Position numbers and translations under genes: made by a program. The notes beneath the pieces are model-generated. The model was not told the DNA's origin. It ran no database searches and worked only from the letters and a program-made list of their open reading frames with translations. 34,573 nucleotides of DNA from IMG/VR virus record IMGVR_UViG_3300042868_001841, positions 1-34,573 of that record; one strand, 5' to 3'. This DNA is from a virus. This document shows positions 1 to 34,573 of the stretch, piece after piece (within the stretch, counting starts at the first letter, position 1; each line of letters starts with the position of its first letter).

Positions 1-150
1 CGCTATCCCTTGAAAAGTTTTGTTTCTCTCTCTCTCTCTCTCTCGGCTGCATACAACTTGTATCGTAATACCATTGACTCATACGCTTCCCACTTTTAGC
101 TGTCCAAATAGATCCTTTATCTACTATATTTGTAGGCTTTAATGATGGCA
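1..150. repeat. Left copy of terminal redundancy
   Basis: These bases recur at 34420-34573. The copies appear identical except that the TC microsatellite at 25-44 has 10 units here and 12 in the right copy. An open reading frame (the methyltransferase) crosses the joint and gains a family-typical C-terminus when the ends are joined. The repeat is therefore best read as assembly overlap of a circular or circularly permuted genome. A T7-type direct terminal repeat would leave this gene cut at the left end. Confidence 0.9.
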
Positions 151-562
151 ATTCTTTTAACCATAAGCAAGTAGCTTTTGTAACGCTATGTCCATATTGC
201 CAAGGATTAATTATTTGGTTAGGTTTTCGCCATTTGCTGCTCATAATTCCTATTGGGTTTTCAATTGCATATCTAGGTATGTTTGAATTTGCAATCGTCA
301 TAAAAAAATCAATACCTTGTTGCTGTCTACCATCGGCAATTTTCTTAGCAAAATGTCTAGCTCCACTTACTGCTAAATGAGTACATGGTGGATGAGCTAT
401 CATTAAATCCCAGTTTTCATTAATAATGTCCATAACATCACCTTGATAATGTTTCCCATCTTTAAGCGTTGGTTCTAAATCACAAGACCAAGCATCATGG
501 CCTAGTTTTGCAAAAGCATCTCTTACAGTACCGCTAAACTCACAAGCAATTAATACTTTCAA
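1..562 (-). CDS. Small DNA methyltransferase (m5C-like), N-terminal part; continues across contig end
   Basis: About 187 codons are present before the contig edge; the gene finishes at 34387 on the right end. It resembles the short phage family annotated as DNA cytosine methyltransferase. I see a Rossmann-like start (VLIACEFSG, residues 3-11), the motif IV-like HPPC (57-60) and the motif VI-like ENP (101-103), then WQYG and KATCLWLK. These would fit an SAM-binding cytosine-C5 enzyme that marks phage or host DNA; no separate target-recognition domain is evident. The start is TTG at 562-560, overlapping the upstream gene's TGA as TTGA, which suggests translational coupling. A TC repeat at codons 173-180 breaks the frame as assembled in both copies. 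The family call is fairly firm; the target base and sequence cannot be told. Confidence 0.75.
   Translation of the reverse strand, partial: MKVLIACEFSGTVRDAFAKLGHDAWSCDLEPTLKDGKHYQGDVMDIINENWDLMIAHPPCTHLAVSGARHFAKKIADGRQQQGIDFFMTIANSNIPRYAIENPIGIMSSKWRKPNQIINPWQYGHSVTKATCLWLKELPSLKPTNIVDKGSIWTAKSGKRMSQWYYDTSCMQPREREREKQNFSRDS
25..44. repeat. TC dinucleotide microsatellite, 10 units, inside methyltransferase gene
   Basis: Ten uninterrupted TC units read as alternating Arg-Glu codons on the minus strand. Following the frame from the methyltransferase start, unit numbers of 8, 11 or 14 keep the frame into the conserved GIADAMA-type C-terminus. Ten units shift into a different frame with a longer unrelated tail. 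The right copy of this sequence has 12 units. Confidence 0.95.
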
Positions 563-2946: not shown

Positions 2947-3258
2947 CTAAAATTCAAATTCTTTGTAGTCGTATCTGCCATTTTCTTTTTTATACCATCC
3001 AATTACGATAATTCGCCATCCAGACCTTACGATTTCGGTAAAGAAGTCCGAGTCGGTAATTTTCTTTATTCGGCTGGACATATTGCTTTTGGATGTGAGC
3101 TGTATACCTAATGTTTCTCCGTTTCCAATAGCCACTATGTCGAAAATTCCAAATAAGTCTTTTTTTCGTCTGCTAAATGAATTGTAGCTTTCGACTATAT
3201 CGCACTTATAGCCCTTGGACTCGTATAAAGCGATTGTGCGGGCATTATTACTAACCAA
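2947..3258 (-). CDS. PD-(D/E)xK-like nuclease-fold protein, probably degenerate
   Basis: 103 residues. The layout (a Lys-rich segment, DLFGIFDIVAI at about 34-44, then LGIQLTSKSN at about 50-59) matches a phage family with the restriction-endonuclease-like core, where D...(E/Q)xT follows the usual strand order. The typical ExK is replaced by Q-L-T, so catalysis is uncertain; a DNA-binding or regulatory role is possible. The start is TTG at 3258, overlapping the HTH gene's stop by 8 bases, which places it as the second gene of the repressor operon and under the same operator control. No closer ATG lies in frame near the beginning. Confidence 0.5.
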   Translation of the reverse strand: MVSNNARTIALYESKGYKCDIVESYNSFSRRKKDLFGIFDIVAIGNGETLGIQLTSKSNMSSRIKKITDSDFFTEIVRSGWRIIVIGWYKKENGRYDYKEFEF

Positions 3259-3436
3259 GGTGTTCTGCCGTCAATCTGCCTTCGGAAGCCTCTATGATCG
3301 CTGTATGCCATTTCTTAGGGATTCCGTTACGCATCTTCCAAGCATAGGCTGTAACATACTTAACGCCAATCTTGTCGCATAAGTTCTTGATTGAGCCAAA
3401 CTCTGCCATAAGGTTATCAAATGCTGTTTTTTCCAT
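3251..3436 (-). CDS. Cro/YdaS-like helix-turn-helix repressor
   Basis: 61 residues. The pattern FGSIKNLCDKIGVKYVTAYAWK (about 13-34) has the typical helix-turn-helix spacing. IPKKWHTAIIEASEGRLTAE (39-58) is the ending seen in YdaS/Cro-type phage regulators. It should bind DNA as a dimer in the cytoplasm and control the divergent promoters beside it. AGGAG sits 6 bases before ATG 3436. Copies of TCTACATT lie in the adjacent promoter region, one overlapping its own -10 hexamer, suggesting autoregulation. No CI-like partner or integrase is visible, so true lysogeny is not implied. Confidence 0.75.
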   Translation of the reverse strand: MEKTAFDNLMAEFGSIKNLCDKIGVKYVTAYAWKMRNGIPKKWHTAIIEASEGRLTAEHLG

Positions 3437-8853: not shown

Positions 8854-10488
8854 CTAACATTGAAATGTTGCAGATGAGGTAAATGTGTGGATAGTTGAAC
8901 CACCAGAAGAAGTTACAGTACCTCCAATAGCTCTTTGTGCGCCAGTATAAGAGATAATAACAATTCCAGATCCACCAGAACCGCCTGTAGCGCTCCATGA
9001 TCCACCACCACCGCCACCAGTATTAGCTGTACCTGATGTAGCATTTCCAGCAGCAAAAAGCGCTCCAGCGCCACCACCACCAGAGCCACCAGACCCTGCT
9101 GTTCCACTAGACCCGCCACCACCACCACCGCCAGCATAAGTTACTGACGAGCCTGATATAGATGAAGATACGCCAGATCCACCATTACCGCCATTGCCTG
9201 CAGAGTGATCTGCTCCTACTGCACTTGCACCGCCACCACCGCCACCACCATCTAGATTACCAGCTCCACCATTGTTTCCTTGTCCAGATGTACCTAATCC
9301 ACCAGAGACATCGGTTGAATTAGCTTGCTGTCCAGTACCGCCTCCAGATCCACCAGTACCTCCAACATTGCCAAACCAAGAACCATATCCACCACCAACT
9401 GAAGCAGTTAAACCAAAAATTGTTGAGTTTGATCCAGCAGTACCATTAGCATTAGAACCGCCAGTACCTCCAGCACCAACTGTTACTGTATAGCCTGTTC
9501 CCTTAGAAAAAGTTGTAGAGCTAGAAATATAACCACCAGCTCCACCGCCAGCGCCACCATTTCCACCACCGCCACCTCCACCAGCAACAGTAAAATAAGA
9601 AGCACTAAATGTTGCTGTAGTATTAGCTAAACTTCCGCTACTTGTAAATGTATGGATAATATTTCCACCAGAAGAAGTAATGTTTCCTCCAGACCATTGA
9701 GGTATATTGCTAGGATAGGAAATAATAACAACTCCTGATCCTCCAGAGCCACCATTGTAGTTATTGCTATTACCAGGTGCAGCAGCAGATCCGCCACCAC
9801 CGCCACCAGTATTTGCAGATCCAGCACTTCCATTTGCATTACTATTAGCGCCAGCGCCACCGCCTCCAGATCCACCAGCACCTCCTGTGCCTCCATAAGC
9901 GCCACCACCACCACCTCCAGCGTATGTTACTGACGATCCTGTAATTGACGAAGCACTACCAGCTCCACCAGCAGCTCCATTATTACCAGAAGCATTTGTT
10001 CCACCAACAGCACTTGCACCGCCACCACCGCCAGCGCCATTAGAAGTGCCTGTTGTTTTTCCACCATCATTACCTTGCCCAGAAGTTCCAGTACCAGCAG
10101 TTCCAAAAGAATTTGAACCACCGCCTGAACCACCATTACCAGCAGCACCAGAACCTCCTCCACCTTTACCGCCACCGCCACCGCCAGTTGCAGAAGAAAT
10201 TGTATCTAAGGAAGATGTATTACCATTTGTGCCAACTAAAGAACTTACTCCTCCAGCGCCACCAGCACCAACTGTAATAGTATAGGAAGTTACAATAGCT
10301 AAATTTGCTGTGCCTGTTAAATAACCTCCAGCGCCACCACCGCCAGCTCCAACTGTATCTCCACTAAGACCGCCACCACCACCACCGCCAGCAACAGTAA
10401 GATAACTGGCAGCGTAAATACCAGGTGCGCCTTGAGCAAACCCAAAAGCACCTATAGCAGCAGCGCCAATTCTAGATAAACGAGGCAT
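8854..10488 (-). CDS. Glycine-rich tail fibre/adhesin with two tandem domains
   Basis: 544 residues, dominated by Gly, Ser, Ala and Asn. A short Ala-rich lead (1-27) precedes two homologous units. Unit one runs about 28-295 and unit two about 296-544. Each starts SYLTVAGGGG or SYFTVAGGGG, passes through many poly-Gly segments, reaches SGVVIISY or SGIVIISY, and ends GG..IHTFTSS. Poly-Gly stretches punctuated by such strands resemble adhesins with polyglycine-II helix bundles (as in phage S16 gp38), which carry host-range loops. It should sit at the tail tip and bind the cell surface. The opposite strand shows Pro-rich open frames only because of this composition. Confidence 0.7.
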   Translation of the reverse strand: MPRLSRIGAAAIGAFGFAQGAPGIYAASYLTVAGGGGGGGLSGDTVGAGGGGAGGYLTGTANLAIVTSYTITVGAGGAGGVSSLVGTNGNTSSLDTISSATGGGGGGKGGGGSGAAGNGGSGGGSNSFGTAGTGTSGQGNDGGKTTGTSNGAGGGGGASAVGGTNASGNNGAAGGAGSASSITGSSVTYAGGGGGGAYGGTGGAGGSGGGGAGANSNANGSAGSANTGGGGGGSAAAPGNSNNYNGGSGGSGVVIISYPSNIPQWSGGNITSSGGNIIHTFTSSGSLANTTATFSASYFTVAGGGGGGGNGGAGGGAGGYISSSTTFSKGTGYTVTVGAGGTGGSNANGTAGSNSTIFGLTASVGGGYGSWFGNVGGTGGSGGGTGQQANSTDVSGGLGTSGQGNNGGAGNLDGGGGGGGASAVGADHSAGNGGNGGSGVSSSISGSSVTYAGGGGGGGSSGTAGSGGSGGGGAGALFAAGNATSGTANTGGGGGGSWSATGGSGGSGIVIISYTGAQRAIGGTVTSSGGSTIHTFTSSATFQC

Positions 10489-33925: not shown

Positions 33926-34248
33926 TGGGTAGCCCTGTCTATAGTACGATTAGTAGCCTCTTGGCTTCTCCATATTTCTATTCTGGCTTGTGCAGCTATT
34001 AATTGCCATCGTAATCTTTCTTCTATTTCTACTGCTTCTTTTAGCCCTTGTAATAAATCTATATAATCATCTGTAGCGTAGGCTTCCATTTCTTTGGCAG
34101 CAATGCTAGATGCTGTAGATTCCATCATTAGTTTGCTTTTAGCTGATCGCAGATAGTTCTCTATATAAGTTCTATTTGCTTTGGCTGCTGCAAAGATACT
34201 TGATTGCTTGATGATGAACTCAACTGCTTTATTCGGGCTAATTTCCAT
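33922..34248 (-). CDS. Conserved hypothetical helical protein
   Basis: 108 residues. YLRSAKSKLMMES (32-44), KEAVEIEERLRWQLIAAQARIEIWRSQEATNR (69-100, in parts) and the TIDRATH end form a family common in Burkholderiales phages near recombination and replication genes. Predicted all-helical. Overlaps the preceding gene by 88 bases in another frame, which is unusually long, so the preceding gene's C-terminus may be variable. Confidence 0.65.
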   Translation of the reverse strand: MEISPNKAVEFIIKQSSIFAAAKANRTYIENYLRSAKSKLMMESTASSIAAKEMEAYATDDYIDLLQGLKEAVEIEERLRWQLIAAQARIEIWRSQEATNRTIDRATH

Positions 34249-34418
34249 AATCTTTCCATTTCATCCTGTAGATCTAATCTAGCTTGCCATCCTCGCTTTT
34301 GCTGTACTAGGTCTAATTGCTTTCTGCGTTTATCTAAAGGCCAACTGAGTAACTCTCTAGCCTCACATTCTTTGCGCCATTCCTCGCTATAGGTTTCCCC
34401 ATTGTTCTGCCATTGCAT
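34161..34418 (-). CDS. Hypothetical protein, EEWRKECEARELLS motif (DUF7696-like)
   Basis: 85 residues. EEWRKECEARELLSWPLDKRRKQLDLVQQKRG (in parts, 12-43) is a recognised small phage family with alternating charged helices; the last 20 residues (SSSSSNQ...) are low complexity. It begins at ATG 34418, inside the end of the methyltransferase gene in a different frame (overlap 32 bases). Confidence 0.6.
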   Translation of the reverse strand: MQWQNNGETYSEEWRKECEARELLSWPLDKRRKQLDLVQQKRGWQARLDLQDEMERLWKLARIKQLSSSSSNQVSLQQPKQIELI

Positions 34419-34573
34419 CCGCTATCCCTTGAAAAGTTTTGTTTCTCTCTCTCTCTCTCTCTCTCTCGGCTGCATACAACTTGTATCGTAATACCATTGA
34501 CTCATACGCTTCCCACTTTTAGCTGTCCAAATAGATCCTTTATCTACTATATTTGTAGGCTTTAATGATGGCA
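34387..34573 (-). CDS. Methyltransferase C-terminal part (right copy)
   Basis: The same minus-strand gene that leaves the left end at base 1 continues here and ends with TAG at 34387-34389. The last residues in the correct frame, NKTFQGIADAMAEQW then GNL, match the standard ending of this methyltransferase family. In this copy the TC repeat has 12 units, and the frame from upstream stops early at 34422-34424. With 11 units the whole gene would read through as about 198 residues. Confidence 0.75.
34420..34573. repeat. Right copy of terminal redundancy
   Basis: Matches 1-150 except for two extra TC units in the microsatellite (154 against 150 bases). Trimming either copy gives a circle of about 34.42 kb. 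Confidence 0.9.
34444..34467. repeat. TC dinucleotide microsatellite, 12 units
   Basis: Twelve uninterrupted TC units; the matching site at 25-44 has 10. The methyltransferase frame needs 11 (or 8 or 14). Confidence 0.95.

Follow-up and report, generated by a model that had tools for sequence, protein, structure and literature searches.

A probably slippery GA tract in a phage DNA methyltransferase gene, assembled as 10 units at one end of a circular genome and as 12 at the other

The window, that is, the whole 34,573-nt stretch of viral DNA analysed here, carries a methyltransferase gene from a known phage family, with a pure dinucleotide tract inside its coding region that has 10 units in one terminal copy of the locus and 12 in the other. 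In our view this tract is probably an accidental slippery coding microsatellite with a functional length of 11 units, whose slipped copies arose either in real genomes or in library PCR, and for which no evolved switch is needed; phage-encoded phase variation has a low probability but can be tested. If the variants are real, the tract is a natural hypermutable site toggling a phage methyltransferase and offers a cheap test of bet-hedging against restriction. Should they be artefactual, the locus shows by example how circular viral assemblies come to be opened at dinucleotide tracts, with spurious frameshifts at their ends. The features concerned are the following.

1–150, no strand: terminal repeat, first copy, 150 nt
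25–44, minus strand: contig-start copy of the tract, (GA)10 on the coding strand, out of frame
45–562, minus strand: 5′ part of the phrog_757 DNA methyltransferase gene, up to the tract, with a TTG start at 562 preceded by GAGGAG
34161–34418, minus strand: next gene, phrog_11642, its start overlapping the methyltransferase tail in another frame
34387–34443, minus strand: 3′ part of the methyltransferase gene, NKTFQGIADAMAEQWGNL and stop, read only with 2, 5, 8, 11, 14 and so on units
34420–34573, no strand: terminal repeat, second copy (154 nt), ending in the same 126 nt as positions 25–150
34444–34467, minus strand: contig-end copy of the tract, (GA)12 on the coding strand, out of frame, with a stop after KLFKG

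Positions 1–150 and 34420–34573 represent one locus: the 24 nt before and the 106 nt after the tract are identical in both copies, and the sole difference is (TC)10 (25–44) versus (TC)12 (34444–34467), which confirms the counts given in an earlier, sequence-only reading. From the tract to the contig end, the two ends share an exact stretch of 126 nt; the last 127-mer is unique. The window, a circular phage genome, is opened within the methyltransferase gene, which runs on the minus strand from the TTG at 562 through the joint to 34387, with the tract read as (GA)n. Because the closest relative is collinear across the joint, the joint is the opening of a continuous gene, as had been proposed; the span of 1–562 originally assigned to it covers the 5′ part and omits both the 3′ part (34387–34443) and the second tract copy. 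In dinucleotide-preserving shuffles (n = 300) the longest pure dinucleotide run was 7 units, placing the real tract far beyond chance, and a search of the whole window found no other long microsatellite or pure dinucleotide run.

When the gene is translated with 1 to 15 units, only n = 2, 5, 8, 11 and 14 read into ...RNKTFQGIADAMAEQWGNL and its stop, and the 11-unit product has 198 aa with this family-typical ending. With 10 units the product is 215 aa long and acquires a foreign tail; with 12 it has 187 aa and ends in ...ETKLFKG, so that the predicted early stop and altered tail, like the recovery of the family ending at 11, are all borne out. Both observed lengths break the frame just ahead of a C-terminal tail conserved family-wide; a change of one unit in either direction shifts the frame and removes this tail, presumably inactivating the enzyme. 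Since an independent relative has exactly 11 units, in frame, the functional state of the gene is 11 units. The gene thus has the pure coding tract with frame-setting unit number of a repeat-controlled phase-variable methyltransferase, while conservation of such a tract at the same site was not found among its homologues. The 12-unit stop sits 3 nt before the ATG of the minus-strand gene at 34161–34418, and tract length might also alter translational coupling to that gene.

The assignment to a DNA methyltransferase family holds. Read from the window start, the 187-aa product matches the phrog_757 (DNA methyltransferase) profile with an E-value of 9.2e-60 over residues 1–159, and P0001, the 11-unit relative, matches it over its full length (E-value 1.5e-68, residues 2–200). 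Across a family alignment of 44 sequences, P58, P59 and C60 as well as E101, N102 and P103 are invariant, corresponding to the PPC and ENx signature of cytosine-5 enzymes, and we take them to be the catalytic loop and motif VI expected of such methyltransferases. G186, A190, M191 and Q194 in the tail after the tract are invariant in the same 44 sequences; the role of this tail is read solely from its conservation. Isolate homologues are annotated as DNA (cytosine) methyltransferases. Named phrog_757 members from Burkholderia phage Bcep1 (Bcep1-12) and cyanophage NATL2A-133 (gp12) show 63% and 62% protein identity over the core, and share the whole-length profile match seen for P0001 and the invariant PPC and ENP; in contrast to them, the window gene encodes the segment before the C-terminal tail with a pure GA tract. 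No Pfam or NCBIfam model matched the product, and the family profile matched no solved structure. The neighbours searched yielded no restriction partner, so the gene looks like an orphan enzyme, and it is probably an ordinary phage orphan DNA methyltransferase with predicted cytosine-5 activity.

The closest relative, L083 (the same contig as L003, IMGVR_UViG_3300039018_000266), has about 94% DNA identity near the gene and exactly 11 units, in frame, encoding PRERERERNKTF. Upstream of the tract, 26 synonymous and 5 nonsynonymous differences separate it from the window gene (pS 0.26, pN 0.012), and therefore the enzyme is under strong purifying selection. Three further contigs, representing two distinct sequences, carry shorter tracts in frame: 6 units in L086, with the segment PREREKMRNKTF, and 8 units in L084 and L085, with PRERERMRNKTF. 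Most close relatives instead encode P-K-E-R-E-K-M-R-N-K-T-F with mixed codons and without a repeat. A collection-wide viral scan for at least 6 GA units adjoining the tail motif returned four contigs with three distinct sequences (6, 8 and 11 units), L083 included. The same pattern was absent from 84,980 bacterial and archaeal genomes (one per species). The suggested check for a GA tract at the same codons of related phages was therefore positive for these three sequences, but most relatives have no tract. Pattern scans for the exact tract context found only L083 and those for the variant tail found no matches; no near DNA match to 24 kb of the window was present in the phage collection, which hence supplied no unit counts from isolates. 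With a single close relative at hand, within-species variation in length has barely been sampled.

The distance from SGKxM to QGIA was 32 residues in 54/54 scored members of the close subfamily, so the codon count across the tract is invariant. Constant protein length argues that substitutions or compensated changes built up the tract inside a segment of fixed length, as opposed to unconstrained expansion. At least 90% of aligned sequences have R176 and R180 conserved, which allows AGA codons in the segment. The tract lies in codons for a conserved P-R-E-R-E-R-E-R-N-K-T-F and would have become a perfect repeat without net change in length; judged from these sequences, it looks like a by-product of PRERExxRNKTF codons. 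Sporadic nine-base homopolymer runs (G9, A9, T9) occur elsewhere in the gene in four relatives (L008, L015, L025 and L340), and suggest that simple repeats arise and disappear at random in this gene.

Adaptive phase variation is the one rival that contradicts an accidental tract outright. Here the tract would be kept so that each burst mixes ON (11) with OFF (10 and 12) phages, hedging on whether to carry a modification that escapes restriction. AG dinucleotide repeats do phase-vary bacterial methyltransferase genes, the mod gene of Mycoplasma mycoides being OFF at 12 AG and ON at 10 AG (PMC3498834). The tract is also far longer than chance and persists in a sister lineage at a pS of 0.26, and both non-11 states abolish the conserved tail. 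Set against this, no broken form was seen among viral relatives. The viral relatives were complete in 79/80 cases, with the tail in frame in all 79 and the remaining one cut by a contig end (residual list judged by eye). Nor did an out-of-frame form appear among 94 distinct contigs chosen by a tail DNA pattern blind to the upstream frame; these had long open frames where the upstream region was full, and seven of the listed remainder hit a contig edge. Among genome relatives, the tail was present in 79/80, with one (L353) interrupted near its start (residual list again judged by eye). Observed unit counts are 10 and 12 in one assembly and 11 in a relative, with no OFF relative seen. Tracts of at least 6 units are confined to the four viral contigs described above, and the codon count does not vary. 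The absence of recurrent tracts or OFF alleles among relatives is unlike what is expected of an evolved contingency locus such as Mycoplasma mod (PMC3498834). We thus regard adaptive maintenance of the tract as improbable, and the proposal that it is an evolved switch finds no support among the relatives, which have either no tract or an in-frame number.

M.MmyCI, a type III methyltransferase of M. mycoides that is OFF with (AG)12 and ON with (AG)10, shares with the window gene a coding AG/GA tract of 10–12 units in which one unit shifts the frame (PMC3498834). It differs in being a bacterial type III mod gene with its tract early in the gene (nt 320), in having several Mycoplasma homologues with tracts and frameshifts, and in the demonstrated activity of an in-frame clone (PMC3498834). 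The window gene, on the other hand, is a small phage orphan with the tract near its 3′ end and no out-of-frame relative. Phasevarions (ModA, ModM and others) have in common with it the idea of methyltransferase control by repeat length, but their conserved repeats are not seen in the relatives of the window gene, and neither switching nor a regulon has evidence here. A limited literature search, covering titles and the openings of abstracts, found no description of a repeat-switched methyltransferase of a free phage. That this phage bet-hedges its own DNA modification, with tract slippage yielding bursts of methylating and non-methylating particles as a phage-encoded analogue of phase-variable methyltransferases, is in our view improbable.

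Among 31 whole, unrelated viral IMG/VR contigs with (GA)10 or longer, six have the tract within 150 nt of a contig end, against 1.27 expected (P = 0.0014), whereas a control motif lay near the end in 1/62 contigs, against 2.74 expected. An unrelated 4683-nt contig, L221 (IMGVR_UViG_3300020415_000110), has an exact 77-nt terminal repeat with its joint inside a (GA)10 tract; its positions 1–79 and last 77 nt provide another circular assembly opened at a dinucleotide run. From this end enrichment and from L221, we conclude that it is ordinary for an assembly to be opened at a tract of this kind, and gene truncations at contig ends near (GA)10 or longer tracts should not be taken as biology. For the window, a pure 22-nt dinucleotide run would slip by single units, and reads with 10 and 12 units would have forked the short-read assembly graph, so that the circular genome was opened at the tract. 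Under the accidental-tract explanation, we infer that slippage by one unit caused the 10- and 12-unit copies and that the variants were present in phage particles.

A purely technical origin, in which all genomes have 11 units and the assembler retained 10- and 12-unit stutter from PCR or sequencing where its graph forked, draws on the same general enrichment of contig ends at GA tracts, and is a real if minor possibility. The exact overlap of 126 nt equals k-1 for k = 127, and the start copy, at 150 nt, has the length of a read; a read of this length contains 24 127-mers, as many as there are bases ahead of the tract. Together with the unique last 127-mer, these lengths fit a k = 127 graph fork leaving a 10-unit tip that may come from a single read, a fit that is suggestive only. 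Circular contigs of the SPAdes type normally overlap by exactly k, as L221 does by 77, and the overlap of 126 nt is thereby weakened as proof of a k = 127 assembler.

Stutter at this level is expected to some extent. Slippage is common at dinucleotide repeats of this size, a 26-nt CA repeat having given 83% on-target reads (PMC9723644), and PCR-free preparation reduces stutter (PMC5309709), so some reads should be one unit off. Stutter from an 11-unit template should nevertheless still assemble as 11. In a read-majority model with all templates at 11, the probability that 12 equals or outnumbers 11 while some 10 is present is at most 0.003 at 5 reads and about 0 at 10, for a model that ignores assembler behaviour and uses assumed stutter rates, one set being scaled to published values (PMC9723644). 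The assembly is better matched by a 10/12 mixture, or by a genome of 12 units, than by pure 11. Because an 11-only genome poorly explains an assembly with 12 and 10 and no 11, genuine out-of-frame phage genomes in the sample are plausible, with moderate support; a true subpopulation with 12 units is no less probable than a purely technical origin, and part of the length variation may be biological. The disagreeing copies, offered in the sequence-only reading as direct evidence of length variation, biological or technical, are then weak evidence for biology, given that the ends of unrelated contigs are GA-enriched, but not worthless, given that pure 11 would assemble as 11.

Alternatively, 12 units could be the common genome in the sample, a recently truncated methyltransferase (187 aa) heading for loss. 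The full path round the circle carries 12 units, and the simple read model prefers 12-unit over 11-unit genomes given the assembly. Yet this reading depends on one assembly, and the gene in other respects shows strong purifying selection, with every viral relative examined having it intact, making a fixed or majority frameshift unlikely. The technical and the majority-frameshift explanations both overlap with the accidental slippery tract, of which they are sub-cases differing on the origin of the 10 and 12.

Elsewhere in the window, the minus strand at 8854–10488 encodes a 544-aa protein that is rich in glycine and strongly repetitive internally (direct-repeat families D1–D6); its second half matches phrog_2295, a family of unknown function, and it is perhaps a virion or tail-tip protein. 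At 2947–3436, also on the minus strand, a small Cro/CI-like regulator lies beside a 103-aa protein that appears nuclease-like by eye and has no PHROG match, a pair hinting at a lysogeny or moron module.
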